Shown one piece after another: positions 5,189 to 38,465 of a DNA stretch of 64,000 bases. The notes under the pieces are model-generated. The model was not told where the DNA came from and did no database searches. It saw nothing but the letters and a program-made list of their open reading frames with translations. This stretch comes from Moraxella haemolytica. Lineage in GTDB: Bacteria > Pseudomonadota > Gammaproteobacteria > Pseudomonadales > Moraxellaceae. A program made the position numbers and the translations under genes. The DNA lies in NCBI RefSeq assembly GCF_030177935.1, contig NZ_CP089974.1, positions 186,001 through 250,000 on the forward strand, given 5' to 3'. Numbering within the stretch: the first letter of the stretch is position 1; each line of letters starts with the position of its first letter.

Positions 5189-5264
5189 GCGGGAATAGCT
5201 CAGTTGGTAGAGCACAACCTTGCCAAGGTTGGGGTCGCGAGTTCGAATCTCGTTTCCCGCTCCA
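5189..5264 (+). tRNA. tRNA-Gly (GCC), copy 2; island integration target
   Basis: Identical in sequence to copy 1, also with encoded CCA. Its 3' half is the left member of a long direct repeat whose other copy lies at 38382, so this gene is the attachment site of the island. The tRNA stays intact because the repeat restores its 3' end. A terminator hairpin follows at once. Confidence 0.97.
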
Positions 5265-5303
5265 AATTCTAAAAAGCCTAAATCGAAAGATTTAGGCTTT
5301 TTT
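5220..5303 (+). repeat. attL: tRNA-Gly 3' end plus terminator (left direct repeat)
   Basis: 5220-5267 is identical over 48 bases to 38382-38429, from the anticodon TTGCC through the CCA end. Similarity continues through the terminator to 5303 with only three differences (5268, 5269 and 5285). The tRNA lies outside the recombinase gene, as expected for a tRNA-integrated element. The crossover must fall within the identical 48 bases. Confidence 0.9.
5271..5303 (+). terminator. Terminator of the tRNA-Gly pair
   Basis: AAAAAGCCTAAATC and GATTTAGGCTTTTTT form a strong stem with a T tract directly after the second tRNA. A near-identical copy lies at 38433-38465 beside the right attachment repeat. 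Confidence 0.9.
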
Positions 5304-5478
5304 ATTGTTTAAATTCAATGGGTTATAATAAAAATTTATTTATAAAAAATTACTCAGGGAAAGAGAGGCGATTCGTGCTTAGAGCTTTGCGTGACCAAAA
5401 CGTGACCATCGTGAAAATTTCATATTTTTTAAAAAGCCTGAATTGACACCAACCCTCATTTTTCATTTCGCCTATTTT

Positions 5479-5694
5479 TTATTCATTTTCATCATCTTTT
5501 TCATAGATAATGATGTCTCCCGGTGTGCAGTCTAACAACTTGCAAAGCTCATTCAGAGATTCAAAATCTATACGAGTCACTTCGTTGTTGTACATTCTAT
5601 ACAATGTAGATCGTCCTAATTTTGACATTCGATCTGCATCGGCTACTCGTATGCCTTTTTGGGCAAATAAAACTGGTAAATTAAGCTTAATCAT
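5479..5694 (-). CDS. Xre-type HTH regulator of the integration module
   Basis: A 71-residue Cro/C1-type DNA-binding protein. It has the compact helix-turn-helix layout (VADADRMSKLGRSTLYRMYNN at about residues 17-37) and the C-terminal LDCTPGDIIIYE found in many small Xre proteins. The ATG at 5694 is preferred because residues encoded upstream of it (a longer frame reaches 5892) do not resemble the family. It is transcribed away from the excisionase/integrase genes across a 123-base AT-rich gap containing an inverted repeat, the arrangement of a lysogeny-type repressor controlling integration genes. That role is inferred. Confidence 0.8.
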   Translation of the reverse strand: MIKLNLPVLFAQKGIRVADADRMSKLGRSTLYRMYNNEVTRIDFESLNELCKLLDCTPGDIIIYEKDDENE

Positions 5695-5761
5695 CAAAAA
5701 AAATCCCATAAATGATAAAAAAATACTTTTAAATGATAATTTTATAAGATAAAATATGATC

Positions 5762-5788
5762 ATTAGTGATAATAAAGATATTACTAAT
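5762..5788. promoter_or_regulatory. Inverted repeat between xre and the excisionase gene
   Basis: ATTAGT and ACTAAT form inverted arms separated by 15 bases, in the divergent intergenic region 30 bases upstream of the excisionase-like start. Several AATGATAA-like repeats lie nearby. It is a candidate operator for the Xre protein. Confidence 0.4.
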
Positions 5789-5817
5789 GAAAACTTTATC
5801 TTAAATGGAGAGTCATT

Positions 5818-6033
5818 ATGACACAAACCTACCTCACAACTCAAGAGCTTTCCCATCGCATCAAGTATGATGAGAGAACCATTCGCAACCAATTAAAAGA
5901 CAGTGTTTTGCTTGAAGGTGTGCATTACATATGTCCCTTTGGTGGTCGTAAAATCCTGTACATCTGGGAGCGAATCGAAAAAGACATGGCGGAGTATTTT
6001 AATCAATCTTCACTTTGTATGGCATTACAGTAA
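5818..6033 (+). CDS. Small excisionase-like DNA-binding protein
   Basis: A 71-residue protein with an N-terminal helix-turn-helix-like stretch (LTTQELSHRIKYDERTIRNQ, residues 5-24) and a short wing (YICPFGGRKILYIWERI). GGAGAG lies 6 bases upstream of the ATG. It ends 11 bases before the integrase start, and such small wHTH proteins beside tyrosine recombinases often direct excision or control int expression. The assignment rests on size, fold and position; sequence alone does not separate excisionase from regulator. Confidence 0.65.
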   Translation: MTQTYLTTQELSHRIKYDERTIRNQLKDSVLLEGVHYICPFGGRKILYIWERIEKDMAEYFNQSSLCMALQ

Positions 6034-6044
6034 TAGGAGGCATT

Positions 6045-7305
6045 ATGGCCAGTATAAGAGAACGCTACGGGTTTCTTGTTGTGGACTTTCGTTACATGAA
6101 CACCCGCTGCCGAGAAAAAACCAATCTAACCGACACACCTGCCAATCGAAAGAAGCTTGCAAAGATTCTAGAGAGAATGGAGGCTGAAATATTACTTGGT
6201 AGTTTTTGCTATGAGCGGTATTTCCCAAAAAGCGACAAGGTTGACTATTTTGAAGATCTGGGTGAAAGACGACAAAACTTACAAAGTGGCGTACCACTCT
6301 TTGGAGAGTTTGTTTGGCAATGGTTTAATGAAAGGTGTATTGAATGGCGGGCAACTTATCAAGAAAAGCTTAGAATCATCATCAATAAGTATTTAATACC
6401 TGTCTTTGATAAGCGTGCCATATCAAGAATAGATAGAGCGGATGTGTTGGCGTTTCGTGCTTCTCTCGCCAAAGTGACCCACAAAACGACCAAACACACC
6501 CTGTCAGCTACCAGAATTAACTCAATCATGGCAACTTTGTACATGATACTAAAAGAAGCGTCAAAACGCTACAACTTTAATGATCCTACCGTTGACATCA
6601 GACAGCTTAAGGTTGAAAAAAGTGACATCACGCCACTAAGTATTGATGAAGTATGGCGTTTTATTGGTGCTATCAGAGCTGACTTTAAAAACTACTACAT
6701 CGTCCGATTCTTTACAGGAATGCGAACCAGTGAAATTGATGGATTGACATGGGAGCATGTAGACTTTGAGAAGCGTCAAATCAAAAGCAGACAGGCGCTG
6801 GTCAATGGTGTGATGGGCCCTCCTAAGACCACCGAATCCTCTCGTGAGATTGACATGGCTCCATTTGTGTATGAGGCACTCTTGGCACAAAAGAAAGTGA
6901 CCTTTGATAAGTCTGAATTTGTGTTTTGCACCCGTGATGGTGAACCACTCAGCTATCGCAATGTAAATCGCAGGGTCTGGCATCCTACTTTAAGGTTTTT
7001 TAAGACTACAAGCAAGAAGCACCTATCAGACACGTCATACAGCAGCCACGCTATGGCTTGCAGCAGGAGAGGCACCAGAGTGGATAGCTAAGCAGATGGG
7101 TCATGTTAACACCATGATGCTCTTTAAAGTCTACAGTCGCTACATACCTAATGCCACAAGACAAGATGGCAGCGCCTTTCATGCGCTGTTGATGCAAAGC
7201 AAACATGGTAAAGATGCGTTTTATTTGGCAAATTTACCCAAGCCAGATACCAACGATTTAACATGGGATAATCACGAATTTGTGCTAATTCCTCCAAATT
7301 TCTAG
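6045..7305 (+). pseudogene. int: Tyrosine-family integrase of the island, frameshifted
   Basis: Site-specific recombinase expected to integrate the island at tRNA-Gly. The start is ATG 6045, 5 bases after TAGGAGG. It has an N-terminal Arm-binding-type region, a SAM-like core-binding region (about residues 90-180) and a catalytic domain with the first Arg in FTGMRTSEIDGL. The frame runs off at 7091. Removing one T from the TTTTTT run at 6995-7000 joins it to the downstream frame, which carries YQTRHTAATLW (box II, Tyr where many have His), KQMGHVNTMM and the nucleophile in VYSRYI. As read, all box II residues and the active Tyr are lost. Its last 158 bases overlap the opposing helicase remnant. 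Confidence 0.85.
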
Positions 7306-7651
7306 CTTGATTTTTATCGCGTTTGATCTGTTTGATTTTCTCATCAATATCGGCAATCTCTTGTTCGCTTGCCTTTATTTTATCTTCCGCCCATTTATCC
7401 AGCCTTTGGCTTTCTTGACTTAATAACACACGCTGGCTTTCGCTGTGGCGTGCGGTGAGTGCAGAGATGGCTTGTTTGGCATTGTCAGCCAAATGGCTGG
7501 GCATTGTAGAAATGCTTTCGCCCATTGTTGCTGAAACACTCAATAATTTGCGACAAAAATCATCATCAAGCCATTCATTATGAGTATTTTGAGCGGTAAA
7601 AACAATTTCTTCATGTGTTTGTTTTTCGCCATAAAACTCCACTTTATCCAC
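7148..7651 (-). pseudogene. C-terminal remnant of the SNF2 helicase
   Basis: This frame continues directly from the helicase gene after a single in-frame TGA (7652-7654), so it is the original C-terminus cut off by a nonsense codon. It encodes VDKVEFYGEKQTHEEIVF, then a Glu/Lys/Gln-rich coiled-coil-like stretch (about residues 70-115). From about 7290 to 7148 it runs antisense to the integrase 3' end and no longer looks like helicase. I infer that the true helicase end was lost at the junction with the integrase. Confidence 0.7.
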
Positions 7652-9937
7652 TCAAAGCCAACTTGATTGCCCTTGATGTTGCTCAATAATGGACAGCTTA
7701 CTGTGATGATTACCATAATCAAATATCAAAGAAGCAATTGGCGTATCGGTATTTTGACACACTTGCAAACAATAGCCCAATGGGTGATTTAAGCGATAAT
7801 CATAGCCTTGCTGCCCATTTTTGGCTTGCAAAATATAAGTACCAGCCTGAAAATCTTGTGGCGGTCTATGTAAATAAAATTGACGATTTTGTGTATCAAA
7901 ATTGGCATTATCATTTAAAGCAAATAGCGTTGCCCACCAAAAATAACGACTGGTTTTGTCAAGCAGACTTTGGCTTTGTGATAATTGTAATTTGAGTTTT
8001 TCTTGCACATCTTCATCAAAATAATCCAAAATTTGACTGTTAGCTCGTTCTAAATTGGCTTGAATTTGGCTTTCTAACTCTTTTTGCAATTCATCAAAAG
8101 CGGTTTTGATTTCATCTGAAGTACGGCAATTTTCATAAATTTGATGAATGCGTTTTTCAAAATCCATACCATTTTCTATACGCCCCAATATTTCATCGGA
8201 TACACCAAAGACGCCATCAAATAATTTGAATTTTTCATCTAATAATTGCAAAATGCGTTGGTCGGCTTCATTTCTTTGATTTAAAAAATTGATGACCACC
8301 ACATCAAATAATTGCCCATAACGATGACACCGTCCAATTCTTTGTTCCACCCTTTGTGGATTCCACGGCAAATCATAGTTAATTAGTAAAGAACAAAATT
8401 GTAAATTTACGCCTTCGGAAGCTGATTCTGTGGCAATCATAATTTGGGCGGTATTTTCAAATTCATCAATTAAAGCACTTCTAACATCTACTGCTTTTGA
8501 ACCTGTGATTTTATGTTCATTGTTTGGATTGTTTTTCCATTGTTGGTAAATTCGCTGACTATTTTTGTCATTATTGCTGCCTGAAAAACAAACAATTTTA
8601 TTGTCATAACCATTATGACTCAAAAACTCAAATAAAAAGGCTGGTGTACGCACACTTTCGGTAAAAATAATGGCTTTTTGTTTTGCACCCAATTCACGCA
8701 TTTTATCAAAACCTGTTTTTAAAGCGTTTAATAAGGATTGGGCTTTACTGTCATTTTTTAATGCACTGGTTGCTTTGATAAAAGATTGAATTTGAGCAAT
8801 TTCTTGATTTAAAAGAGAAACATCAGTTTCATCAAAAACATCTTGATTGTCATCATCATTTTCCCATTCATCAAATTCTTGAGTAAAATCTCCTTCAATT
8901 TTATCTAATTGTGATAATAAATCTTTTTGCGGTAATTGATTTTTAATTGCCAGCAGTCTATCTAAAATCACTTGCAAAGTATCGGCAATGGCATAAGGGC
9001 TAGATGCCAAAAGTTTTCTTAAAATCAAGCCAATCAAATGGCGTTGGCGTTTTGGTAGAGCAATGCTGTGTTCTTTACGAATAAAATCAGAAATGGCTTC
9101 ATAAAGCTGTTGTTCATCGTCATTGGGATAAAAGTTTTGGGTAATGGTGTGGCGTTTGGTATAGCGAATGTATTCACTCACATCTTTTCTTAAAGTGCGT
9201 TTGACAACTGTTTTTAGGCGTGTTTTTAATTCAGCATTGTTTTGCCCACCCACAAACTCACGGCGAAAGCCTTTTTCATCGCCAAATAATTCATCGTCCA
9301 ATAAAGTGGATAAACCATATAATTCCATTAAACTGTTTTGTAGCGGTGTGGCGGTGAGTAATAATTTCTTACGCCCATTAAATGCCGTTTTTAAGGTTTG
9401 CCCCATTTTACTGCTAGAACGATGGGCATTTCTTAATTTATGAGCTTCGTCAATAATCACACAATCAAAATAATGCCCTGCCAAAGTATCGGCAAATTTA
9501 CTGGCATATTGATAAGAAACAATGACAATTTCTTTGCCCACTTTATCAGACAAGAATTGAAAAACATCATTGCCAAACGATTTTAATATCGGCTTATCCA
9601 AAATAATGCTGGGCAAACCAAATTTATTTGCCAATTCATTTTGCCATTGTTTTCTTAATACAGCAGGGCAAACGACCAACAATCGCCGTTTGCATTCTGC
9701 CCATAATTGACACAGCACCAAGCCTGCTTCAATGGTTTTGCCCAAGCCCACTTCGTCCGCCAATAAAACGCCTCTGTCCAACGGATTGTGCAGGGCAAAA
9801 ATGGCGGCATCAATCTGATGTGGATTTAAATCCACTTTGGCATTAAACAAACCTTGGCTAATGCGTTCTACACCAGTATCAGATTGACATAAAATGGCAT
9901 TGGCAAAATATTTGGCTTGGTGTGGCGTAATGTTCAT
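7652..9937 (-). CDS. SNF2/RapA-type DEAD-box helicase, C-terminally truncated
   Basis: Superfamily 2 ATPase of 761 residues. It has Walker A LADEVGLGKTIEAG (about residue 60), Walker B IIDEAHKLRN, motif III LLTATPLQNS, the C-terminal helicase motif ATESASEGVNLQFC and motif VI QRIGRCHRYGQ. Acidic and linker regions sit between the two RecA lobes. ATG 9935-9937 is chosen over the upstream TTG because it shares one base with the stop of the preceding gene (TAATG), implying translational coupling. An in-frame TGA at 7652 removes the last domain. Helicases of this type accompany R-M-like defence loci, and the upstream methylase and nuclease remnants support that here. Confidence 0.85.
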   Translation of the reverse strand: MNITPHQAKYFANAILCQSDTGVERISQGLFNAKVDLNPHQIDAAIFALHNPLDRGVLLADEVGLGKTIEAGLVLCQLWAECKRRLLVVCPAVLRKQWQNELANKFGLPSIILDKPILKSFGNDVFQFLSDKVGKEIVIVSYQYASKFADTLAGHYFDCVIIDEAHKLRNAHRSSSKMGQTLKTAFNGRKKLLLTATPLQNSLMELYGLSTLLDDELFGDEKGFRREFVGGQNNAELKTRLKTVVKRTLRKDVSEYIRYTKRHTITQNFYPNDDEQQLYEAISDFIRKEHSIALPKRQRHLIGLILRKLLASSPYAIADTLQVILDRLLAIKNQLPQKDLLSQLDKIEGDFTQEFDEWENDDDNQDVFDETDVSLLNQEIAQIQSFIKATSALKNDSKAQSLLNALKTGFDKMRELGAKQKAIIFTESVRTPAFLFEFLSHNGYDNKIVCFSGSNNDKNSQRIYQQWKNNPNNEHKITGSKAVDVRSALIDEFENTAQIMIATESASEGVNLQFCSLLINYDLPWNPQRVEQRIGRCHRYGQLFDVVVINFLNQRNEADQRILQLLDEKFKLFDGVFGVSDEILGRIENGMDFEKRIHQIYENCRTSDEIKTAFDELQKELESQIQANLERANSQILDYFDEDVQEKLKLQLSQSQSLLDKTSRYFWWATLFALNDNANFDTQNRQFYLHRPPQDFQAGTYILQAKNGQQGYDYRLNHPLGYCLQVCQNTDTPIASLIFDYGNHHSKLSIIEQHQGQSSWL

Positions 9938-11334
9938 TATGTTTCCCAAGTAACTGTATTCAAATAACTATCGTCCAAAATGGCATTGAATAAATGCTGT
10001 AAATAATCTATGCCATTGATATTTTCCATAAACAAAATATGTTTATCAGCAAAGTCTTGATAAGTTTTACCAAAATGATTTAATGCTCCTGTTTCTGCTG
10101 TATCGGTGCTTGGGGTAATGGATAAAATAAAACTATTTAAAGTCAATTTATCCAAATTTAGGCTGCCTGAAAATTTCTTTAATTCATCAAACAACATAAA
10201 TTTAGGGTCATCAAATGACAACTGGCGTATGCCTTTGGGGTCAATAAAGCTAAGCCATTGTTCATTGCTGTTTTTATCCACCAGCCACAATAAAAAATCA
10301 GGATAAAAATCGCCTGCCAGTGCAAATCCCAAGCCTTTGGCTTTATTAGACGCATTACGAAGCAGATACAGCTCTTTATCGCCTATCCACTGTTGTAATT
10401 TGCCTGTATTGCAAGCATTTTGCAGATCTTGCACAAATTTTCGTTCACTTTTTTCTTGCATTAGCAAAGGTTTTAATGAAAATGGCACATTGTCTTTATC
10501 GGCAAGACTGATGATTGGATAAAACAAATGCCTATCAAAACAAATGGCGTGTACATTACCATCCTTACCGTCCTTCTCAAAGCCCATTACTTTTGCCAAA
10601 TCTCCACTTTCTACCCAATTTTTTAATTCATTAAGTTTGGTTTGGTAATTTGGCACACCATCATCTTCATTGGGGCGTATTTCAAACACATAATTTTCCA
10701 ATAAGGCTTTATGATGATTGCCAATTTCTTGCATTTGATAAAATTGCCCTTCATATGCCCCTTTGAGTTTTTTATAAAAGGCTTCCACATAAATCAACAG
10801 CAAATCCAAAAGGATTTTCTCTTGTTTTTGAATGTCGGCAAAACTTTGTATTTGTAATTCACTTTGGGGAACATACAATTTATACCAGTCGGTTTTTTTG
10901 GCAAAATCCTTTAATTTGGCTTTGTCCAATTTAAGATTATTAAACGATTGCCACATTTTGTGGTTTAATAATGCCAAATAAACTTTATCCCAATTCACAA
11001 AATCAAAAATAAACGCATTTAAATGCCCTTTTTGTTTTTGGCTTTCGGTGATTTTCAAGGCATTATCACGACTGGTAATGGCCTCTATTTTCGGGTACAA
11101 ATCCAAAACCGCCACAGGCATTTTGATATTGGCGTATTTTTGGGGAATTTCAAATAGCGTTACCGTTTCACGGCGTTTAAAACTTTTTTCACGATTGCCT
11201 TTATAGGCTTCGTCCAATTGCAAAGTTTTTAGGGCAATATCTTTGGGCAAATTGGGCTTGGTATCAAAAAAAATGGTAATCACTTCGCTGGTATCTATGC
11301 CTTCATAGGATAAATAATCACGGAAAGTCTGCAT
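9937..11334 (-). pseudogene. C-terminal half of a type III-like restriction (Res) protein
   Basis: A 465-residue open frame that reads like the C-terminal part of a larger protein. Near the end, DFYPDFLLWL and SFIDPKGIRQL resemble the PD-(D/E)xK endonuclease core of type III Res subunits. No Walker A, DEAD-box or other helicase motif is present, so the ATPase half appears missing. The start is not supported by a good ribosome-binding site, and the frame abuts a methylase N-terminal fragment. The simplest reading is an internal deletion that removed the end of mod and the first half of res. It overlaps the helicase start by one base. Family assignment is moderate. Confidence 0.6.
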
Positions 11335-14932: not shown

Positions 14933-16158
14933 TTATCTAACCACAAGTAGCCCATTAATATCCGTTGTAAAGCAAGGACTCAAATGATCTCTTCTCATCT
15001 GCCAGTCTTTGTTTAATAATCCTGTGCCAAGGGTGATGCTGTTCTTTCCAAAGCGTGTCATCACCCCATCCCAAGCTGTTATTAATCTATCATCGTCAGA
15101 TGCTTCATCAAACAGCAATGACTGCTCAAAAGGTCCTTGGCTTAATCCACCAAGCATAATGCCGCACTTTTTATAACGATATTGAGGTTTGTATATCTGC
15201 TTTAATAATTCTTGAGCTGCTTGATGAAGGCGTATCACATCATCACTGGCATGAGGCAATCCGATGGTTTTTAACCCACTGTACTGCTCATCTTGTCTAA
15301 ATCTGTCTGTATGGATAAACACACTGATGGTATGAGCTTTGCTGTGCTCTTTTCTAAGTGCTTGCACACCGCTTTTAACATGATGCGTCACTGCTGACTG
15401 TAAAGCTTGTAAATCACCAACCAACTTACCAAAACTTCGACTGCGCACAATATGACGTCTGCTTTGTGCTTCTTCTAATGCCAAGCGGGATAAGCCTTTC
15501 ATCTCTAAATGTATCTTTGCCACAGTGATGTTAAAGTGATGTCTAATAAAGCTTTCGTCTGCTTGTACAAAATCCCAAGCTGAATGGATGTTCATTGCTG
15601 CCAATTCCCCAGATTTCACCCACAGGCTCGCTTTTTAAAGCGCGCTGCTGCACTCAAAAGACCAATCAGTCCACACCACAACCTTGCCAAAGTGCTTAGG
15701 GTGTTTTTTAGCAAGGTGATTGCAGAATTTGGCCAATGTCTTGGTCGGAGCAATGCCAACACAGGTGGGTATGCCCACCCACTGCATGACACGCTGTTTG
15801 ATCTGTCTGCCCAGCCCTTGTAAGTCTTTGATGCCGCTTAATTGCACAAAGCATTCATCAATCGAATAAATCTCAACAGCAGGCACCATACCCTCAATGG
15901 TTTTCACCATGCGATTAGACATGTCGCCATACAGTTCATAATTGCTGCTAAAAGCAAACAATGAGCCTTGAGACACCAGATGCTTAACCTGAAGTAAGGC
16001 ATGCCCATCTTAATGCCCAAAGCTTTGGCTTGTGCGGTGCGTGATACCACACAACCATCGTTATTGGATAAAACAACAACCACTTTATCTTTTAAGGCAG
16101 GTCTAAATACTTGCTCACAAGAACAATAAAAACTGTTACCATCAATCAAGGCATACAT
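14933..16158 (-). pseudogene. umuC: UmuC-like Y-family DNA polymerase V, multiply broken
   Basis: Error-prone polymerase fragments in three frames. The N-terminus from ATG 16158 (MYALIDGNSFYCSCE; then SNNDGCVVSRT) is lost at about 15992, where one T appears missing after CCTTAC. The middle piece (EIYSIDECFVQLSG, then PTKTLAKFCNHLAKK) is lost near 15654, where one A appears missing in TTTTGAAGTG. About 15605-15615 should encode the linker between EIWGIG and LAAMNIHSAWDF, but roughly 20-25 bases seem deleted, possibly between two copies of ATTGGC. The C-terminal piece (to 14933) is otherwise normal. It lies directly downstream of umuD in the usual operon order. Three lesions make this a true pseudogene. 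Confidence 0.85.
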
Positions 16159-16159
16159 T

Positions 16160-23531: not shown

Positions 23532-23585
23532 TTGTTATTTCATTTAAATTGTATTTGACCCCAGCTTGTGCAAGGAGAAAATAAA

Positions 23586-25477: not shown

Positions 25478-25479
25478 TA

Positions 25480-26593
<1,114 letters not shown>

Positions 26594-26709
26594 GATGGCG
26601 GCAAAATGGATTGCTTGTAAATTTCATAAAAGTCATTAAAATCTTTTTTACCCCTAGTGGTCAGTACCTAATGGCTGAAATTTGTCATCATCTATCAAAA
26701 GGAGTAAAT

Positions 26710-29397: not shown

Positions 29398-30198
29398 ATG
29401 TCGAGAACCAAGCGTTTTAAAGATAAGGTGGTGATTGTGACAGGTGCAGCTCAGGGAATTGGGCGTGGCGTGGCTTTGCAAGTCGCCAAAGAGGGGGCAA
29501 ATGTGGTGCTGGTGGATTTTTCGGATTTTGTGCAAGAAACCGCCGATGAGATTGCCAAATTACAAAAAACTGGCAAAAAAGGCGATCATCTCATCGTCAA
29601 AGCCGATTTGGAACAGTATGCAGGAGCCCAAGAAGTTGCCAAGCAAACCCTTGAAAAATTTGGGCGCATTGATGTGCTGATTAACAATGTCGGTGGGGCG
29701 ATTTGGATGAAGCCGTTTGAGGAATTTGCCGAAAATGAAATCATCAAAGAAATCAACCGCTCGTTGTTTCCAACTTTGTGGTGTTGTCATGCGGTGCTAC
29801 CTTGTATGATTAGCCAGCAGTCAGGCGTGATTGTCAATGTGTCGTCCATCGCCACTCGTGGCATTCATCGCATTCCTTATTCTGCGGCAAAAGGCGGGGT
29901 AAATGCCTTGACCGCAAGTTTGGCATTTGAACACGCCAAAGACGGCATTCGTGTCAATGCGGTGGCGACAGGCGGTACAGACGCTCCGCCACGCAAAATC
30001 CCAAGAAACACCAACCCCCAAAGCGAGGACGAAAAACGCTGGATGCAAGAGGTGGTTGAACAAACCATTGACCGCACCTTTTTGGGGCGTTATGGCACGA
30101 TCGACGAGCAGGTTAATGCGATTTTGTTTTTGGCGTCCGATGAGTCGTCCTATATGACAGGCGCGGTCATGCCTGTGGGCGGTGGCGATCAAGGATAG
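29398..30198 (+). CDS. benD: 1,6-dihydroxycyclohexa-2,4-diene-1-carboxylate dehydrogenase
   Basis: Oxidatively decarboxylates the benzoate cis-diol to catechol with NAD+. Short-chain dehydrogenase of 266 residues. It has the glycine motif TGAAQGIGRG (residues 15-24), NNVGGA, catalytic Ser in VNVSSIATRG and the YSAAKGG Tyr/Lys pair. The C-terminal TGAVMPVGGGDQG is typical. It closely resembles BenD. The hipO/MFS pair separates it from benABC, unlike the usual contiguous benABCD order. Confidence 0.94.
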   Translation: MSRTKRFKDKVVIVTGAAQGIGRGVALQVAKEGANVVLVDFSDFVQETADEIAKLQKTGKKGDHLIVKADLEQYAGAQEVAKQTLEKFGRIDVLINNVGGAIWMKPFEEFAENEIIKEINRSLFPTLWCCHAVLPCMISQQSGVIVNVSSIATRGIHRIPYSAAKGGVNALTASLAFEHAKDGIRVNAVATGGTDAPPRKIPRNTNPQSEDEKRWMQEVVEQTIDRTFLGRYGTIDEQVNAILFLASDESSYMTGAVMPVGGGDQG

Positions 30199-30242
30199 CT
30201 TTTTACCCATCACTGGAAAAATATGGCTGACACGGAGTGTGG

Positions 30243-31424
30243 ATGATGAGCGTATTTAGGGATTTTAAGCAAGATTTTTCTTTGTCGGCAATGGTGGCGG
30301 GTTTGCTTGCGGTAACGATTTCTTACGCAGGACCGTTGGTGATATTTTTTCAGGTGGGGCAGTCGGCAGGTGTGGATAACGCCATGATGATTTCATGGAT
30401 TTGGGCGGTGTCAATTAGCTCGGCAGTTGGCAGTATTTTTTTATCTTTACGCCACAAAGTGCCGATTTTGCTCGCTTGGTCAATCCCTGGAACGGCACTT
30501 TTGGTCAGCCTGTTTCCCAGCATTAGCCTTAATGAAGCGGTGGGGGCGTATCTCATCGCAGGCGTGATGAGCCTTGCCATTGGCATGAGTGGCTATTTTG
30601 ATAAGGTATTGCATTGCATTCCGCAGGGCATTGCAGGTGGTATGATGGCAGGGATTTTGTTTGGTTTTGGCGTGGGAGCGTTTTCGTCATTTAGCAGTGA
30701 ACCGATGTTAACCTGTGCCATGCTGGCAAGTTTTTTGGTTGCCAAACGCTTTTTGCCTCGTTATGCGATTGTGTGGGTGCTTTTGATAGGGCTTTTGGTG
30801 GCGTGGTTATTGGGACTCATAAATGGTAGCCAAGCTTTTGAATTGAGTGTTGCCAAGCCCATATTTATCGCCCCAGAATTCTCGTGGCAGGCAGTGTTTA
30901 ATTTGGCATTGCCGTTGGTGATTTTAAATTTAACAGGGCAATTTTTACCTGGAATGGCACTCATTAAGCTTAATAATTATCAAGTATCCAGTCAGCCCAT
31001 CATCAATAGTGCAAGCCTACTGTCGCTCGCTGTGGCGGTGTTTGGGGGCATTAGTATTGTGCTGGCGGCGGTAACATCGGCTTTGTGCATGGGCAAAGAT
31101 TGCCACGAAAACTCTGACAAACGCTACATCGGCGGTGTGTTTAATGGCGTGTTTTATCTGGTGGGAGCGGTGTTTGCAGGTTCTTTGGTGGGCTTGTTTG
31201 CCATGCTTCCCAAAAGTTTAATCGCCATGCTGGCAGGCTTGGCGTTGCTTGGGGCATTATTGACCAATCTTGGCATTGCCATGCAACACAGCGAACAAAA
31301 AGAGCCTGCGTTAATCACCTTTTTGGTAACAGCCTCAGGCATGAGCTTGTTTGGGTTAAGTTCGGTGTTTTGGGGCATTGTATTTGGCATGGCGAGTTTT
31401 TATTTTTATAAGCTGAGATGGTAA
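30243..31424 (+). CDS. benE: BenE-family benzoate transporter
   Basis: Inner-membrane benzoate importer with about 12 hydrophobic segments, 393 residues. BenE features include GPLVIFFQVGQSAG near the N-terminus, AWSIPGTALL and IPQGIAGGMMAGILFGFGV. CGGAG at 30233-30237 favours one of the adjacent ATGs at 30243/30246 over the GTG at 30237. It follows benD by 44 bases, as in Acinetobacter. Together with BenK, the island carries two benzoate carriers of unrelated families. Confidence 0.92.
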   Translation: MMSVFRDFKQDFSLSAMVAGLLAVTISYAGPLVIFFQVGQSAGVDNAMMISWIWAVSISSAVGSIFLSLRHKVPILLAWSIPGTALLVSLFPSISLNEAVGAYLIAGVMSLAIGMSGYFDKVLHCIPQGIAGGMMAGILFGFGVGAFSSFSSEPMLTCAMLASFLVAKRFLPRYAIVWVLLIGLLVAWLLGLINGSQAFELSVAKPIFIAPEFSWQAVFNLALPLVILNLTGQFLPGMALIKLNNYQVSSQPIINSASLLSLAVAVFGGISIVLAAVTSALCMGKDCHENSDKRYIGGVFNGVFYLVGAVFAGSLVGLFAMLPKSLIAMLAGLALLGALLTNLGIAMQHSEQKEPALITFLVTASGMSLFGLSSVFWGIVFGMASFYFYKLRW

Positions 31425-31479: not shown

Positions 31480-32880
31480 ATGGCGCAAAAAAACGAAACT
31501 TTGTATCAAGGAGGTTTTGCCAAAACCCCAAAAAAGATCTATCGTGGCATTGGTATTATTTCCATAGCAGCAGTCGTTGCCTATCTTTTATATGCTGTGA
31601 TTTTACCATTTGATGCTAATGCCAATAAAGGGCTTGCCATTTTGTTTTTTATTGGGGTGTTATGGTTGACTGAAGCAGTGCATATCACCGCAACAGCTCT
31701 GTTTGTTCCTGTTTTGGCGGTATTGGCTGGTGTGCCAGAATTTAATACCAAGTCGGCGTTTGCTAATTTTGCGGATCCAATTATTTATGTGTTTGTCGGC
31801 GGGTTTGCGCTAGCAGCAGCGTTAAGTGTGCAAAAACTTGACCGAAAAATTGCCCTTTGGATTATGCGTCTATCAAATGGACATTTGGGACGAGCGGTAA
31901 TGATGATGTTTTTGGCGACCGCAGGACTGTCGATGTGGATTAGTAATACCGCCACAGCGGCGATGATGGTGCCATTGTCACTGGGGTTGCTTACACAGCT
32001 TGATAGAGAAAAAGACAGAAATACCTGCATTTTCATCTTGCTTGGTGTGGCCTATTCGGCAGGGATTGGTGGCATTGGGCTGCTTGTGGGTTCACCACCC
32101 AATGGCATTGCTGCCAAACAGCTTGGCATGGATTTTATGGATTGGCTAAAAGTGGCTTTACCATTACTTGTGGTGTTATTGCCCACCTTGATCGCTACCA
32201 TGTATTTGATTTTAAAACCAAATTTGAATCAAAAAATCGTGGTTAGTGATGAAGAAATTCCTTGGACGCCTGCTAGAATTTTAACGATTGTTGTTTTTGT
32301 CATAACGGCGACCTGTTGGATTTTTGGTAAGCAGATTTCAGGGTATTTTGGTTTTGATAGCCCTGACACCATGATTGGTATGATGGGAGCCTTAAGTGTG
32401 ATGGTACTTGGTCTTGCTACTTGGAAACAGGTCAGCGAGCGTACCGAATGGGGTGTTTTATTGTTGATTGGTGGCGGTTTTACCTTATCAAATGTGATGA
32501 AGCATTCAGGAGCTTCAGCGGTGCTGGGCGAACAACTTGCCACGCATTTGGCGGGTATGCCTGTGATTTTTATTATTTTTGTGACCGCTTGTTTTATGAT
32601 TTTCTTGACTGAATTTACCAGCAATACAGGTTCAACCGCCTTGATGGTGCCAATTTTTGCGTCTGTTGCCACACAGCTTGGTTTGCCAAATGAGCTTTTG
32701 GTGATGGTTATTGCCATTGGTGCATCTTGTGCCTTTATGATGCCTGTTGCTGCCCCGCCTAATGGCATTGCTTTTGCTACGGGCTATATGGCTCAAAAAG
32801 AGATGGTAAAGGTCGGTTTTTTCTTAAACTGGGTTGCTATTGGAATTGTTACGCTGTGGGCGTATGTGTTGTTGATATAA
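31480..32880 (+). CDS. SLC13/DASS-family sodium:dicarboxylate symporter
   Basis: A 466-residue carrier with the two SNT signature loops of the family: WISNTATAAMMVPLS and FTSNTGSTALMVPIF. The matching hairpin regions carry SPPNGIAA and APPNGIAF. Such proteins import succinate, fumarate, malate or sulfate with sodium. Inside this operon, between benE and catI, it may take up a dicarboxylic pathway intermediate such as beta-ketoadipate or muconate, or succinate. That substrate is inferred from position only. Confidence 0.85.
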   Translation: MAQKNETLYQGGFAKTPKKIYRGIGIISIAAVVAYLLYAVILPFDANANKGLAILFFIGVLWLTEAVHITATALFVPVLAVLAGVPEFNTKSAFANFADPIIYVFVGGFALAAALSVQKLDRKIALWIMRLSNGHLGRAVMMMFLATAGLSMWISNTATAAMMVPLSLGLLTQLDREKDRNTCIFILLGVAYSAGIGGIGLLVGSPPNGIAAKQLGMDFMDWLKVALPLLVVLLPTLIATMYLILKPNLNQKIVVSDEEIPWTPARILTIVVFVITATCWIFGKQISGYFGFDSPDTMIGMMGALSVMVLGLATWKQVSERTEWGVLLLIGGGFTLSNVMKHSGASAVLGEQLATHLAGMPVIFIIFVTACFMIFLTEFTSNTGSTALMVPIFASVATQLGLPNELLVMVIAIGASCAFMMPVAAPPNGIAFATGYMAQKEMVKVGFFLNWVAIGIVTLWAYVLLI

Positions 32881-32899
32881 TTTTTAAAAGGAGTAAACA

Positions 32900-33586
32900 A
32901 TGATTGATAAATCCAGCCAATCACTCACCCAGGTGATGAGTCAAATCAAAGACGGCTCAATCATTCTCATCGGCGGTTTTGGACCGGCAGGTCAGCCTAC
33001 CGAGCTGATTGATGCACTCATTGATTGTAATGTCAAAGATTTGACAATTGTGAGTAACAATGCAGGCAATGGCGATTATGGATTGGCACGCCTGCTAAAA
33101 ACAGGAGCGGTGAAAAAAATCATCTGCTCATTTCCTCGTCAAGCTGACTCGTATGTCTTTGATGAGTTGTATCGTGCCGGTAAGATTGAGCTTGAAGTTG
33201 TTCCGCAGGGCAATTTGGCTTGCCGTATTCAGGCGGCAGGTATGGGGCTTGGGGCGATTTATACGCCAACAGGGTTTGGTACACTGCTTGCCGAAGGTAA
33301 AGAGACTCGTCATATTGAGGGCAAGGATTATGTGCTTGAATACCCAATCAAAGCCGATTTTGCCCTTATCAAAGCCCATAAAGGCGACCGTTGGGGCAAT
33401 TTGGTGTACAACAAATCGGCTCGTAATTTCGGTCCTATCATGGCAATGGCGGCTGATGTTACCATTGCTCAGGTGGGTGAAGTGGTAGAGCTTGGTGAGC
33501 TTGACCCTGAACACATCATCACGCCAGGTATCTTTGTGCAGCATATCGTTGAGCTAACCTCTGTAACGCACGCCATGACAGAATAA
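32900..33586 (+). CDS. catI: 3-oxoadipate CoA-transferase, subunit A
   Basis: Alpha subunit of succinyl-CoA:3-oxoadipate CoA-transferase, 228 residues. The CoA-transferase family I start is DGSIILIGGFGPAGQPTELI with the GGFGxxGxP motif. NNAGNGDYGLARLL is typical of PcaI/CatI. AAAGGAG precedes the ATG. It is followed 11 bases later by subunit B. The pathway order catIJFD after the transporter matches the Acinetobacter cat cluster, hence the symbol. Confidence 0.94.
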   Translation: MIDKSSQSLTQVMSQIKDGSIILIGGFGPAGQPTELIDALIDCNVKDLTIVSNNAGNGDYGLARLLKTGAVKKIICSFPRQADSYVFDELYRAGKIELEVVPQGNLACRIQAAGMGLGAIYTPTGFGTLLAEGKETRHIEGKDYVLEYPIKADFALIKAHKGDRWGNLVYNKSARNFGPIMAMAADVTIAQVGEVVELGELDPEHIITPGIFVQHIVELTSVTHAMTE

Positions 33587-33597
33587 GGGAAAATATC

Positions 33598-34248
33598 ATG
33601 ACTTATCAAAAACTAAGCCGGGACCAAATCGCAAGCCGTATCGCCAAAGACATTCCAGAAGGGGCGTATGTCAATCTAGGTATAGGACTGCCAACCAAAG
33701 TGGCCAGCCACTTACCCAAAGACAAAGAGATTTTTTTACATTCTGAAAACGGTTTGCTCGCCTTTGGTCCGCCCCCAGAAGCGGGGCAAGAAGACCCAGA
33801 GCTTATCAATGCTGGTAAAGAGTTTGTTACCATGCTCACAGGTGGTTCGTTCTTTCATCATGGCGATTCGTTTACGATGATGCGTGGCGGTCATTTGGAT
33901 ATTTGTGTATTGGGTGCTTTTCAAGTTGATGAAGATGGCGACCTTGCCAACTGGCACACAGGCGAGAGTGATGCTATTCCTGCGGTAGGCGGAGCGATGG
34001 ATTTGGCAGTGGGAGCAAAACAGGTGTTTGTTGCAACCGAACATACAACCAAAAAGGGCGACCCCAAAATTGTCAAAAACCTCACCTACCCAGTAACGGG
34101 CAAAAAATGCGTGGATAGAATCTACACTGACCTATGTGTGATTGATGTTACACCGGAGGGTCTAAAAGTCATTGAAAAAATTGAAGGTTTGGCTTTTGGG
34201 GAATTACAACGACTCACAGGGGCAAGTCTGATTGATGCAACCATTTAA
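33598..34248 (+). CDS. catJ: 3-oxoadipate CoA-transferase, subunit B
   Basis: Beta subunit of the CoA-transferase, 216 residues. The catalytic Glu lies in LHSENGLLAFGP (the SENG motif), after YVNLGIGLPTKVASHLP. The C-terminal half has GGHLDICVLGAFQVDEDGDL. It forms an alpha/beta heteromer with CatI and activates beta-ketoadipate at the expense of succinyl-CoA. Confidence 0.94.
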   Translation: MTYQKLSRDQIASRIAKDIPEGAYVNLGIGLPTKVASHLPKDKEIFLHSENGLLAFGPPPEAGQEDPELINAGKEFVTMLTGGSFFHHGDSFTMMRGGHLDICVLGAFQVDEDGDLANWHTGESDAIPAVGGAMDLAVGAKQVFVATEHTTKKGDPKIVKNLTYPVTGKKCVDRIYTDLCVIDVTPEGLKVIEKIEGLAFGELQRLTGASLIDATI

Positions 34249-34268
34249 ATAAAAAATTAAGGGGAATT

Positions 34269-35477
34269 ATGATGCAAAACGCTTATATTATTGATGCCAT
34301 TCGCACACCATTTGGGCGTTATGGTGGGGCATTGTCAGGCATTCGTGCTGATGACTTGGGGGCAACTGTTATCAAGGCAATCATGGAACGCAATGGCAAT
34401 GTAGATTTTAGTCAGGTTGATGATGTGATTTTTGGTTGTGCCAACCAAGCAGGTGAGGACAACCGCAATGTTGGTAGAATGTCTGCTCTACTGGCAGGAA
34501 TGCCAACAACGGTACCTGCAACGACCATAAACCGTCTATGCGGTTCATCACTTGATGCCATTGCAACCGCCAATCGTGCCATTAAATCAGGCGAGATGAA
34601 TCTCATCATCGCAGGTGGGGTGGAGAGCATGAGCCGAGCCCCTTTTGTGATGGGTAAGGCACAGACGGCGTTTGGGCGGTCTCATCAACTAGAAGATACC
34701 ACGATGGGTTGGCGGTTTATTAACCCTAAACTAAAAGAGCTTTATGGCGTGGATACCATGCCACAGACCGCAGAAAATGTCGCCGAGCAGTTTAACATCA
34801 GCCGAGCAGACCAAGATAAATTTGCTCTAAGAAGCCAGACACTTACCAAAACCTCCCAAGATAAAGGTTTTTTTGATAAAGAAATCATTTCGGTGTCTAT
34901 TCCACAAAAAAAGGGCGAGCCAATTTTGGTGGATAAAGATGAACACCCACGAGCCGATACAACCCAAGACGCTTTGGCAAAACTCAAACCTGTGGTTAAG
35001 CCAGATGGCACGGTTACCGCCGGCAATGCCTCAGGTATCAATGATGGGGCGTGTGCGGTACTGATAGCCTCTGATGAAACGGTAGAAAAATTTAATCTTG
35101 TCCCACGAGCCAAAATTATTGCTAGTACAACCGTTGGTATTGAGCCACGCATTATGGGTTTTGCCCCTGCTCCTGCCATTAAAAAACTGCTTGCCATGAC
35201 TGGGCTTGGTCTTGATGACATGGACGTGATTGAGCTTAACGAGGCTTTTGCTGCCCAAGCCCTAGCGTGTACTCGTGAGTTAGGTTTGGCTGATGATGAT
35301 AGCCGTGTCAATCCCAATGGCGGTGCGATTGCCTTAGGACACCCATTGGGTGCGTCAGGGGCAAGGCTGGTAACAACTGCTTTAAATCAGCTTGAACAGA
35401 CAGGTGGTAAATATGCTCTATGCAGTATGTGCATTGGGGTGGGTCAAGGGATTGCGTTGATTATTGAGCGAGTTTAA
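34269..35477 (+). CDS. catF: 3-oxoadipyl-CoA thiolase
   Basis: Cleaves beta-ketoadipyl-CoA to succinyl-CoA and acetyl-CoA, the last pathway step. It has 402 residues. The thiolase nucleophile Cys is in NRLCGSSLDAI (about residue 90). The second His/Cys pair is in GGAIALGHPLGASGARL and CIGVGQGIALI. The PcaF-type start YIIDAIRTPFGRYGGALSG favours 3-oxoadipyl-CoA over acetoacetyl-CoA thiolase. The start may be either of two adjacent ATGs (34269/34272). Confidence 0.94.
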   Translation: MMQNAYIIDAIRTPFGRYGGALSGIRADDLGATVIKAIMERNGNVDFSQVDDVIFGCANQAGEDNRNVGRMSALLAGMPTTVPATTINRLCGSSLDAIATANRAIKSGEMNLIIAGGVESMSRAPFVMGKAQTAFGRSHQLEDTTMGWRFINPKLKELYGVDTMPQTAENVAEQFNISRADQDKFALRSQTLTKTSQDKGFFDKEIISVSIPQKKGEPILVDKDEHPRADTTQDALAKLKPVVKPDGTVTAGNASGINDGACAVLIASDETVEKFNLVPRAKIIASTTVGIEPRIMGFAPAPAIKKLLAMTGLGLDDMDVIELNEAFAAQALACTRELGLADDDSRVNPNGGAIALGHPLGASGARLVTTALNQLEQTGGKYALCSMCIGVGQGIALIIERV

Positions 35478-35487
35478 GGGGTGCAAT

Positions 35488-36264
35488 ATGCCAATTTTTA
35501 CCAATAATGAAGTCAGTTTAAATTACCAAACTTTTGGTGATAAGACAAAACCGGTCTTGATTTTTTCCAATTCATTGGGAACAAATCAAAACATGTGGCA
35601 AGCCCAAATTGACGCTCTACAAACAGACTTTTTTATTGTCTGTTATGACACACGTGGACATGGCGACAGCTCCACACCAGAGGGGAGCTACACCATAGCA
35701 CAACTTGGGCAAGATGTGGTGGATTTGTTGGATTATCTTGACATTAGACAGGCGAATTTTTGTGGTATTTCTATGGGTGGTTTGACGGGTATCTGGCTTG
35801 CCATTCATCACCCAAGCTACTTTAATAAGATCATCGTCTCAAATACCGCCGCCAAAATTGGCAACCAAACCGCTTGGCAAGAACGAGCAGACAGCGTACG
35901 TGCTAATGGCTTGCAAGGCATTGCTGATACCGCCCCCAGCCGATGGTTTACTGATACTTTTATCAAAAACAACCCTGAGAATGTCAAACATCTTAGCCAA
36001 AACCTTGCCAAAGGCGACAAAGATGGTTATGCCAACTGTTGTGAAGCATTGGCGATTGCCGATTTGCGTGATGACCTAAAAGATTCGCAAGTGCCAATGC
36101 TGGTCATTACGGGCAGTGCTGACCCTGTAACCACTGTCGCCGATGGTGAATTTATTGTGGAGCATGCCCCCAATGCCAAACTTACCATTATTGAGGCTTC
36201 GCATATTGCTAATGTTGAGAAAGCAGAGGTATTTAATCAGACTATTAAATCTTTTTTAAATTAA
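35488..36264 (+). CDS. catD: 3-oxoadipate enol-lactonase
   Basis: Hydrolyses beta-ketoadipate enol-lactone to beta-ketoadipate. Alpha/beta hydrolase of 258 residues. The oxyanion region is IFSNSLGTNQNMW, the nucleophile elbow NFCGISMGGLTG (Ser), the acid Asp is near GSADPVT and the final His in EASHIANVE. ATG 35488 follows GGGGTGCAAT and suits the family N-terminus better than the in-frame upstream start inside catF. It is the last gene of the 16-gene run. No clear terminator follows before the IS element. Confidence 0.93.
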   Translation: MPIFTNNEVSLNYQTFGDKTKPVLIFSNSLGTNQNMWQAQIDALQTDFFIVCYDTRGHGDSSTPEGSYTIAQLGQDVVDLLDYLDIRQANFCGISMGGLTGIWLAIHHPSYFNKIIVSNTAAKIGNQTAWQERADSVRANGLQGIADTAPSRWFTDTFIKNNPENVKHLSQNLAKGDKDGYANCCEALAIADLRDDLKDSQVPMLVITGSADPVTTVADGEFIVEHAPNAKLTIIEASHIANVEKAEVFNQTIKSFLN

Positions 36265-36322
36265 TTAAGGTTAGGTGAGGTAATTAGCATAGCTAAATTC
36301 AGCCTGTACCAGCCAGCTATTT

Positions 36323-37178
36323 TCAAACAACCTCTAAGAAGGTTTTGTTAAAAAACTGTCGTTCTTTTTCGACAGGGCTTAGGTAGTTATTAAAGCTGTG
36401 GGTCTGATTTGACTGTAATAGCCATGGATATAACTTGCCGAATCTACTTTTGCTTCATGAATGTTCTCATAGCCATGTTTTGGCATCCATTCGGTTTTAA
36501 AACTTCGAAAGAAACGTTCTGTTGGTGCATTATCCCAGCAATTGCCTTTTCTACTCATACTGTGTGTCATCTTACATCTGGCAATAGCATCGGCAAAGGT
36601 TCGACTGGTGTAATGCGTTCCTTGATCTGAATGAAATAACACACCAGTTGGTTGAAAGCGTATGGTATAAGCCATAGCCAATGCTTTAGTGGTCAGCTCA
36701 ATGTTTGGACGATCACTCATGGCAAAGCCAATGATGTGTCTGGCATATAAATCCATCACCATTGCCAAATAACAAAATCCTGCTTTGTTGTGAATATACG
36801 TCACATCCGATACCCACACTTGATTGGGTGCAGCTGGTGCAAACTGTCGTTTTAGCAAGTTGTCATGCACTGTATGTGCTTGATCAGCCATACGATAGTG
36901 CGATGCTTGATGCTTTGGCGACTGATGAGTCCTTGTGCTCTCATTAATTGACGCGCTTTATAGCGTGTTAGTTTAATCTGATGAGCACGACTGACCATAG
37001 CAGCAATACTTCTAGATCCTGCCGATCCTTTAGAGCAATCAAAGGCTTGTTTTACCCATAAGCGTAGCTCAATCTCTTTGCGTGTTGGCAATCTGATTCT
37101 TTGCTTGGCATAATAAGTACTTCGGTAAATACCAAATAACTGACACAGCTTTGCTTTACTGATGCTGTATTGCCCCAT
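36323..37178 (-). pseudogene. IS3-family transposase orfB, two frameshifts
   Basis: DDE integrase-type transposase. The first frame (from 37178) has the HTH_21-like MGQYSISKAKLCQLFGIYRS. It shifts near 36905, just after GLISRQS. The second carries the catalytic core: VSDVTYI (first Asp), LFHSDQGTHYTS (second Asp) and GNCWDNAPTERFFRSFKTE (Glu). A base missing near 36401 throws off the end, which would read RPHSFNNYLSPVEKE to a TGA at 36323. Two lesions make it non-functional as read. Confidence 0.8.
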
Positions 37179-37189
37179 CAATTGCTCTA

Positions 37190-37498
37190 TTAGCGGGATA
37201 GTAAGTTGTCTTGAGCCAATAGAGCGGATGCCTTTTTTAAAATATCTCGCTCAAGTCTTAGCTGGGTATTTTCTTTACGAAGTCGTTCAAGCTCTCGTTG
37301 TTCTGGTGTTAGAGCATGACCTGTGGCTAATGGCTTGCCTTGAAGTTCAAGACGATAACGTTTAAGCCAGTTTTCTAAAGTAGATTTACCGATATCATAT
37401 TGCTTAGCAACATCAACAACACGCTGATTCTGCTCTTCAATGAGTTTTACCATTTCTAGTTTAAATTCGGTGCTGTACTGCTTACGCTGTTTTGTCAT
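37190..37498 (-). CDS. IS3-family transposase orfA
   Basis: A 102-residue DNA-binding subunit. It has an N-terminal helix-turn-helix (YSTEFKLEMVKLIEEQNQRV and VAKQYDIGKSTLENWLKRYR) and a C-terminal leucine zipper typical of orfA (ELERLRKENTQLRLERDILK). It ends 12 bases before the orfB start, so the usual OrfAB fusion would need frameshifting. The orfA frame is intact, but orfB is broken. Confidence 0.88.
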   Translation of the reverse strand: MTKQRKQYSTEFKLEMVKLIEEQNQRVVDVAKQYDIGKSTLENWLKRYRLELQGKPLATGHALTPEQRELERLRKENTQLRLERDILKKASALLAQDNLLSR

Positions 37499-37510
37499 GA
37501 GAGATTACTC

Positions 37511-37690
37511 CTAGTTTGGGGTAATATAACCTCTTATGGGGTTATCATTCTTAAGGGGGATGCAAATCCCCATGAATTCGACATTAGTCAGGGAGGCAAG
37601 TGCCAAAAAATATTCCCGTAATAAGTAAGCGTGACTATTGTTATTGGGCAATAAATGAGCCAATGCTAATCGGATATCATGCTCATCCAT
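37511..37690 (-). CDS. Small hypothetical protein, possibly cut by the IS
   Basis: Starts at ATG 37690 with GGAGAG upstream and overlaps the preceding frame by 8 bases (ATGGATGA), so it is the second gene of a pair. It encodes MDEHDIRLALAHLLPNNNSH and a helical LLREYFLALASLTNVEF. The last 20 or so residues come from sequence next to the IS and may not be native. No family recognised. Confidence 0.45.
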   Translation of the reverse strand: MDEHDIRLALAHLLPNNNSHAYLLREYFLALASLTNVEFMGICIPLKNDNPIRGYITPN

Positions 37691-38118
37691 GTAGACTCTC
37701 CTCAATAAGATCAGCAAAGGTGGGCATGGGGATGTTCTTTGGGGCTTTGGCTAGATAGTAATCCCAGCTTTTCCTGCTAATATTTTTTGGTTAAAATTTT
37801 TTGAATGGTGGGCTTGCCACCGAGTATATCAATAACTGTACTAGAGGGGCATTCGGACAGTAATTTTGGGAAGATGTGCAAACTAACATTTGACACAAGA
37901 AACACGTCAAACAAATGATTCCAAGCCTTCTTATTGACTTCGTTATCGCTAAGCGTTACTTCCTTGACATAGATTTTATCCCCATTCTTTATTTTTAGGC
38001 AGGATGAAAAATTGGTATAGAAGTAATAGCGACTCTCTCGGTGAACTACTTCGATATAGGAAGTGTCAGAGGTGGAGAGTGGTAGATTGGCAGAATTTTC
38101 AATACAAATTGATAGCAC
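37683..38118 (-). pseudogene. Hypothetical protein with one-base frameshift
   Basis: The frame from 38118 ends at 37777 after GGKPTIQKILTKKY. Dropping one A from the six-base run at 37783-37788 continues it as ILTKNISRKSWDYYLAKAPK and then IPMPTFADLIEESLHG to a TGA at 37683. That C-terminus overlaps the next gene in classic operon style, which argues it is real. The restored protein would be about 144 residues. No family recognised, and the N-terminal start is uncertain. It is the last gene pair before attR. Confidence 0.5.
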
Positions 38119-38381
38119 TTTTTTGCATGTTGATGGACTATCAGATTGTCGTGGACAATTATCAATTTGACGTGCGTTTTTTTGTTAGCGGATTTTATTT
38201 TTTGTGTGCAATTAAAATTAGGTTGGTATAATTTTACCCTAAATTTAGGGTGTCTGCAACGACACAAAATTAAATAAATTATGTATTAGTAAATGAAAAT
38301 ATATTAAAAAAATTCCATCAAAAGCCTTTAAAATACTAGCTTTACATATAATATAGGTTTATATAATTTAGGTGGCTGACA

Positions 38382-38465
38382 TTGCCAAGGTTGGGGTCGC
38401 GAGTTCGAATCTCGTTTCCCGCTCCAAATCTTAAAAAGCCTAAATCAAAAGATTTAGGCTTTTTT
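38382..38465 (+). repeat. attR: displaced tRNA-Gly 3' end and terminator (right direct repeat)
   Basis: The first 48 bases equal 5220-5267, the 3' part of tRNA-Gly from the anticodon to CCA, with no tRNA 5' half before it (it is preceded by GGTGGCTGACA). The following stem AAAGCCTAAATC...GATTTAGGCTTTTTT is the terminator copy, with one base change in its loop. This is the original chromosomal 3' end displaced by integration. Confidence 0.9.

Follow-up and report, generated by a model that had tools for sequence, protein, structure and literature searches.

A probably composite tRNA-Gly island with a whole benzoate ortho-cleavage gene set in Moraxella haemolytica

With several elements stacked at one tRNA gene, tandem or accreted islands are characterized by repeated attachment (att) sites and decaying integrases. 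Among degradative integrative and conjugative elements (ICEs), the chlorocatechol route of ICEclc is the only ortho-cleavage cargo named in the available part of a 2023 review (PMC9960961). In the accessible portions of two other reports, the proximity of rRNA and tRNA genes led to the proposal that the P. stutzeri A1501 pathway had been transferred, mobility genes being absent (PMC2907835), and benAB were found in 92% of the Acinetobacter strains tested (PMC10149724). Here, we describe a window of 64,000 nucleotides of the Moraxella haemolytica genome (contig NZ_CP089974.1, positions 186,001 to 250,000), in which an integrase module, defence and SOS genes, and a benzoate/catechol (ben/cat) gene set are bracketed by repeats of a tRNA-Gly 3' end. 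This locus is probably a composite, grounded island at a tRNA-Gly integration hotspot, whose catabolic cargo was kept and refreshed by recombination. Comparisons were made across 22 genomes of the same genus, labelled G000 (the window's genome) onward; none of the 21 others is a strain of the window's own species. No publication on this island was found among those judged by their title or the start of their abstract.

The borders of the island are defined by a tRNA gene and its partial copy. ARAGORN identified two tandem tRNA-Gly (GCC) genes on the plus strand, at 5093..5168 and 5189..5264, the second being the attachment gene, and called no third tRNA gene within the window. In the direct-repeat listing of positions 4800-39500, the segment 5217-5311 was repeated at 38379-38473 with 94% identity across 95 bp, and the only other family consisted of two copies of 21 bp. 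Letter-by-letter reading revealed that 5220-5267 and 38382-38429, both on the plus strand, are identical over 48 bp, and that each copy is followed by a hairpin and a T run, the terminators extending to ~5311 and ~38473, respectively. The tRNA 3' end is thus directly repeated at both borders, as attL-like and attR-like sites, and the perfect repeat and duplicated terminator described in the sequence-only reading, an earlier interpretation of the same letters, were recovered as such.

The catabolic genes occupy positions 17122-36264 of this framework. All 11 enzyme genes considered (benA, benB, benC, benD, catA, catB, catC, catD, catI, catJ, and catF) are open and above NCBIfam cut-offs, so that every gene of the benzoate ortho (beta-ketoadipate) pathway is present as an open frame; the earlier statement that an integrase module and a gene set leading from benzoate to tricarboxylic acid cycle intermediates lie between the repeats was therefore borne out. 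The block begins with a minus-strand gene for a BenM/CatM-type LysR regulator (17122..18051; best match BenM, 382 bits, below the cut-off of 600), and all genes that follow are on the plus strand. These comprise an aromatic acid MFS transporter (18381..19730; TIGR00895, 410.6 bits, below the cut-off of 418.55), catB, catC, and catA (19936..22400), benA, benB, and benC (23568..26593), benD and benE (29398..31424), and catI, catJ, catF, and catD (32900..36264), with each of these cat and ben groups passing curated cut-offs. Profile matches identified additional genes within this series, namely an MBL-fold hydrolase between catA and benA (22488..23531), an MFS transporter (27926..29320) that lies with an M20 amidohydrolase (26611..27906; TIGR01891) between benC and benD, and a DASS transporter between benE and catI (31480..32880). 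The amidohydrolase passes only a general subfamily cut-off (TIGR01891), its best solved relatives being YxeP and an IAA-amino-acid hydrolase, and may be a hippurate-type hydrolase that frees benzoate from an N-benzoyl amino acid. Based on curated family matches, the predicted route would start with benzoate uptake and proceed through BenABC and BenD to catechol, through CatA, CatB, CatC, and CatD to 3-oxoadipate, and through CatIJ and CatF to succinyl-CoA and acetyl-CoA. Matches to 17 of the 18 cluster genes were found in G009, the DASS gene being the exception, with dN values of 0.005-0.088 versus dS values of 0.012-1.18 (the catI alignment covers only 120 of 228 codons). As judged by these values, the benzoate genes are kept open under purifying selection.

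The left end of the island carries a tyrosine integrase gene (6015..7091, plus strand) that starts 0.75 kb behind the tRNA-Gly and thus adjoins its attachment gene. Its product matched Pfam Arm-DNA-bind_2 and part of Phage_integrase. A three-frame view showed that the gene leaves its frame in the C-terminal part, ahead of the portion holding the last catalytic residues, whose position we take to be that of the HxxR and Y motifs. Since the frame breaks before this last catalytic part, a functional integrase is not predicted, and mobility of the island by its own enzyme is unlikely. Divergent from the integrase is a gene for a Cro/C1-type regulator (5479..5892, minus strand; Pfam HTH_26). At a cut-off of E ≤ 1e-20, and with two rows of the first G009 copy counted once, this integrase family was represented by 12 genes in 9 of the 22 genomes. 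Eleven have a tRNA-Gly repeat of the same orientation 0.70-0.95 kb ahead of their start; the remaining copy, in G013, begins 394 bp from a contig start, which leaves its upstream neighbor out of view. Site-specific insertion at tRNA-Gly is therefore habitual in the genus, and the proposal of a tRNA-Gly-targeted island with attL/attR-like repeats finds support in this pairing. A relative of the regulator was located beside all 10 relative integrase copies that were fetched, although in G013 it covers only 26 residues; the second copy of G012 was outside this comparison, and a further relative occurs in G001, a genome without an integrase match. This Cro-like regulator is likely part of the integration module. 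Stop-free integrase frames of 398-421 residues were found in G003 (two copies), G010, G012 (one of two), G019, and G020. In G009, the first copy is broken too and the second is cut at 61561. Only 2 remote relatives (25%) were obtained among viral contigs.

Comparison of the islands revealed that the same parts are differently assembled in related species. With a cut-off of E ≤ 1e-50, benA was detected in 6 of the 22 genomes (G000, G003, G005, G009, G019, and G020). In G009, the tRNA-Gly is followed by a 50-kb first element devoid of ben/cat genes, a second repeat, the cut integrase, an inverted ben/cat block, and a third repeat, the three repeats framing two tandem integrase-bearing elements. 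The left end of the island is 94-95% identical to each of the two integrase ends of G009, and positions 37536-38473 match the right end of its first element (97%). G003 exhibits a 42-kb stretch between tRNA-Gly repeats, in which the integrase, umuDC, an IS3 piece, and ben/cat are found in a different order and orientation. In G020, ben/cat genes followed by a repeat are on one contig, and the tRNA-Gly and integrase are on another. In G005, the cluster (at 2.0 Mb) adjoins a gene that by eye is gltX-like, and no repeat is present at that locus; the tRNA-Gly of this genome, at 0.219 Mb, has no integrase. G019 carries a distinct benA (73%) at another location. G000, G003, G005, G009, and G020 all carry the amidohydrolase and MFS genes between benC and benD; the MBL-fold gene displays 99.3% DNA identity to G009 and is unmatched in the G005, G003, and G020 clusters, and the DASS gene is unmatched in those of G009, G005, G003, and G020.

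Several side observations concern these loci. A 75% relative of the DASS transporter occurs in the otherwise distinct G019 cluster, at another place. The first element of G009 contains two large open reading frames (ORFs) of 1622 and 1723 residues that share the same N-terminus and are followed by many small ORFs, a candidate CdiA/haemagglutinin-type array by eye. Next to the benzoate cluster of G003, positions C24:5920-10829 hold a second M20 amidohydrolase (39% to that of the window) and, by eye, dehydrogenase- and transporter-like genes.

The junction at the right end offers a further indication of how the island was assembled. Between the catabolic genes and this end lies the remnant of an insertion sequence (IS) of the IS3 family (36304..37542, minus strand), recognized by profile match and by comparison with whole copies, with orfB split over two frames beside orfA. 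One of its tips is devoid of ~24 bp compared with whole copies. The segment that follows (37543..38381) is the right end of an element, with 97% identity to that of the first element of G009, and the junction itself (37536..37542) is the sequence ATGGGGT, present at the ends of both the IS and the G009-type element. The junction and the lost IS tip are consistent with the loss of DNA between an IS copy and a neighboring element. IS3 pieces are located by or near the ben/cat block in the window, G009, and G003, and a 142-bp IS match (92%) was found on a Moraxella osloensis plasmid, which, together with Moraxellaceae relatives of benA, makes the assignment to Moraxella plausible.

The catabolic segment is itself a mosaic. 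DNA identity to G009 is high for catA (98.0%), the MBL-fold gene mentioned above, benC (98.7%), the amidohydrolase (98.3%), the MFS gene (98.6%), benD (98.2%), and benE (96.4%), and is lower for benA (90.2%), benB (84.3%), catB (80.9%), catF (81.6%), and catD (86.5%). Binned identities placed breakpoints near 21.4, 24.45, 25.5, and 31.3 kb. The stretch 24450..25500 (plus strand), which covers the 3' part of benA together with benB, forms a divergent patch in which the window shares 76-86% identity with both G009 and G005, whereas the latter two are 95-97% identical to each other; the same pattern was seen in the bin at 34.5 kb (94% versus 74-75%). Because the two other genomes agree in the divergent patch, the window's genome was likely the receiver there. 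The baseline for these identities consists of three core genes rather than a whole genome: secA, with 79% identity to G009 and 78% to G005, and two genes left of the tRNA, for which dS is above 2 or saturated. The ORF at 1585-1950 was left out of this baseline, being unmatched in G009, G005, and G001 and 98.3% identical in G015. Such high identity of cargo segments between species with distant core genes therefore points to a recent exchange of pathway pieces, including with the non-island copy of G005, presumably by homologous recombination. Natural transformation is one idea for the route of DNA entry.

These observations can be combined into a sequence of events. As the comparison of islands shows, tyrosine integrases of one family, encoded beside a divergent helix-turn-helix regulator, insert elements at the 3' end of tRNA-Gly in this genus, where these can stack in tandem. 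The right end of the island belongs to one such element type, and its left end to the same integrase family. The junctions suggest that the catabolic block was placed between the island ends by an IS3-linked rearrangement, which may have ended in a microhomology deletion fusing the IS to the right end. As the integrase, umuC, gajA, and the transposase appear from their frames to have been broken since, the island is probably no longer self-moving. Recent exchange between species, which involved a copy outside any island as well, has affected parts of the catA-benE core.

Several points weigh against this scenario. The order of events was deduced from a few species, and a shared junction of seven bp could also be a chance match or the product of a different process. 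At its opposite edge, near 17122, the block has no IS tip in the window. The co-occurrence of the integrase, umuDC, and ben/cat between repeats in G003 is compatible as well with an ancient single unit whose parts were shuffled afterwards. Moreover, the amidohydrolase gene of G003 contains 2 stops, and the cargo is therefore not whole everywhere.

In a rather less probable variant, the tRNA hotspot would be a mere parking place. An IS with palindromic tips would be the means by which the block is moved and inverted from one stacked element to another. The catA-benE core would pass from species to species chiefly through homologous allele replacement, whether its copies lie inside or outside islands, and the pathway would thereby stay modern as its carriers decay. 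The motif TGTACCGGTACA is exact at one IS end in 2 of 5 distinct IS copies, and TGTACCGGTCA is found at the opposite end in 6 of 9 copies. Overall, TGTACCGGTACA occurs 17 times in 6 of the 22 genomes, with 0 occurrences of the pattern read backwards. Six of the 17 sites are in G009, 5 of them within the tRNA-Gly region and two bracketing the ben/cat block. Only 4 of the 17 exact sites adjoin IS sequence (by eye), which counts against their interpretation as IS tips. Solo copies are probably IS scars and may have doubled as inversion points. The exact 12-mer is absent from the window's genome, where a degenerate form is present at 36304. On the joined G009 stretch, TGTACCGGTACA was located at 51360, 54000, 61561, 77122, and 80811, at joints between unrelated pieces. 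A role of TGTACCGGTACA as a recombinase site was considered and rejected, as IS copies carry this sequence or near forms as the outer 12 bp of one end.

We regard it as unlikely that the ben/cat genes have long been present in the genus, once standing near tRNA-Gly and gltX, and were later swallowed by tRNA-Gly elements landing beside them. The five BenA proteins of the genus do form one clade (SH-aLRT 99) beside 18 rows of the Acinetobacter group (support 85) in a quick tree of 36 rows. Ordinary chromosomal clusters have this gene order as well: benM-catBCA-benABCDE-catIJFD was whole in 15 of 38 named loci, 13 from the Acinetobacter group and 2 from Psychrobacter, several loci being cut by contig ends. 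The repeat-free G005 cluster beside its gltX-like gene and, in G015, a gltX-like gene ~3 kb from tRNA-Gly would also agree with an ancestral location. Yet benA is missing from 16 of the 22 genomes, including that of the closest relative by secA (G015, 87%), in which no match was found within a genome 88% complete, and the block sits between tRNA-Gly repeats in G000, G003, and G009. A recent import of benA from Acinetobacter was set aside because the five sequences of the genus form their own clade. A tree of catI and catJ (22 rows, G009 being dropped for its partial catI) placed Psychrobacter among the Acinetobacter rows and did not settle the origin. Plasmid matches were limited to 4 records, of which one was the IS match and three, from Acinetobacter, covered 9-10% of the query at ~75% identity.

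Slightly lower still is our estimate for a single tRNA-targeted mobile unit as the carrier of the complete route and of the defence and SOS genes, all gained in one event, which was the central claim of the sequence-only reading. The exact 48-bp repeats and the integrase module speak for it, as does the 42-kb stretch of G003, in which the integrase, umuDC, and ben/cat are all between repeats, and the integrase and umuC (the latter as a single frame) are open. This claim did not survive as the main explanation because block order and orientation differ in G009 and G003, the catabolic segment has a mosaic identity, and the right end looks like a fusion. In addition, the block is part of the second tandem element in G009 and occupies a repeat-free locus in G005.

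The defence and SOS genes provide little indication of a joint arrival. Remnants of a defence module (7148..11334, minus strand) were recognized by profile matches each covering only part of the profile, including a DrmD-like SNF2 helicase (7652-9949, minus strand) and part of a type III restriction enzyme (9937-11334, minus strand). Among the islands compared, the DrmD-like gene recurs only in part, in the first element of G009. PADLOC identified a plus-strand Gabija system, in which gajA is split over two frames (11774-12277 and 12271-13497) and gajB is one ORF (13487-14866), so that the two are not both whole genes. Gabija is hardly matched in the other islands, with a single match at 27%. 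The G+C content is 29.6% in the Gabija stretch, 44.3% in the ben/cat block, and 41.8% in the whole window. Profile matches further placed umuD (16160-16726, minus strand) in a umuD-umuC stretch (14933..16726, minus strand), the umuC part of which is distributed over three ORFs. In G010, which lacks benA, umuDC likewise come after the integrase.

The junction expected of an empty site, also predicted by the sequence-only reading, was not found in the relatives, where island-free tRNA-Gly loci continue into other neighbors. A tRNA-Gly without this integrase was identified in G015, in G005, and at one locus of G008, and none of these runs on into the right flank of the island. G015 is colinear with the window over 1-5309 and 40917-49642, and a conserved gene for a 228-residue protein, the gltX-like gene, and others (named by eye) are found between these flanks. 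The best gltX-like match in the window's genome is at 1.87 Mb. A 224-residue gene lies directly after tRNA-Gly in G005 and G008 and has relatives in 18 of the 22 genomes, with none in G000. G008 also harbors a further tRNA-Gly repeat with an integrase on another contig. Outside the right repeat, the 746 bp of 38474-39219 yielded only three matches of 25-41 bp in the other 21 genomes. By these comparisons, the right flank of the island is rearranged. After the 746-bp stretch, within the region 38474-40764, lies a POT transporter gene for which relatives (E ≤ 1e-30) were detected in no more than 4 of the 21 other genomes, and an insertion relative to G015 may extend to ~40.9 kb.

The two tandem tRNA-Gly genes and a flank beyond the right repeat that is itself rearranged relative to G015 might suggest that this repeat, rather than an att site, is a broken tRNA-Gly gene, the third of a cluster that a chromosomal rearrangement has split, an explanation made very improbable by the 11 of 12 integrase copies located behind the same repeat and by the three G009 repeats framing two integrase-bearing stretches.

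As a composite island, this locus provides a readable case of a pathway entering a tRNA island, in which stacked elements, an IS-linked fusion, the decay of mobility genes, and a cargo refreshed between species can be followed together. It also calls for caution, since tRNA repeats surrounding a cargo are no proof of gain in one step.

Among known systems, the ICEclc family, as presented in the available part of the review, shares with this island the insertion at a tRNA-Gly 3' end, a tyrosine integrase next to attL, and an aromatic cargo, and 17 of 18 letters of the ICEclc att core agree with the repeat of the window (PMC9960961). By the same partial account, members of this family range from ~103 to 174 kb, compared with 33 kb for the island, and ICE-borne routes are of the meta-cleavage type save for the chlorocatechol route of ICEclc, in contrast to the whole benzoate ortho route found here; although not an ICE, a tRNA-Gly island with this route would extend the ortho-cleavage list of that source (PMC9960961). 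Unlike in ICEclc-type elements, the integrase of the window is broken, and no relaxase, type IV secretion, or conjugation gene was recognized among the larger island ORFs scanned with NCBIfam or Pfam. The island is not filed under this family because no conjugation gene was recognized and the likeness rests on the att target, not on a comparison of integrases. With the chromosomal clusters of Acinetobacter and Psychrobacter, it shares the order benM-catBCA-benABCDE-catIJFD, from which it departs by the addition of the amidohydrolase and MFS genes, the MBL-fold gene, and the DASS gene, and by the location of its block between tRNA-Gly repeats. Tandem or accreted tRNA islands offer a parallel in that G009 likewise shows stacked elements, repeated att sites, and decaying integrases; in contrast to generic accreted islands, the likely joining agent can be named here as an IS3-family element with tips TGTACCGGTACA and TGTACCGGTCA.

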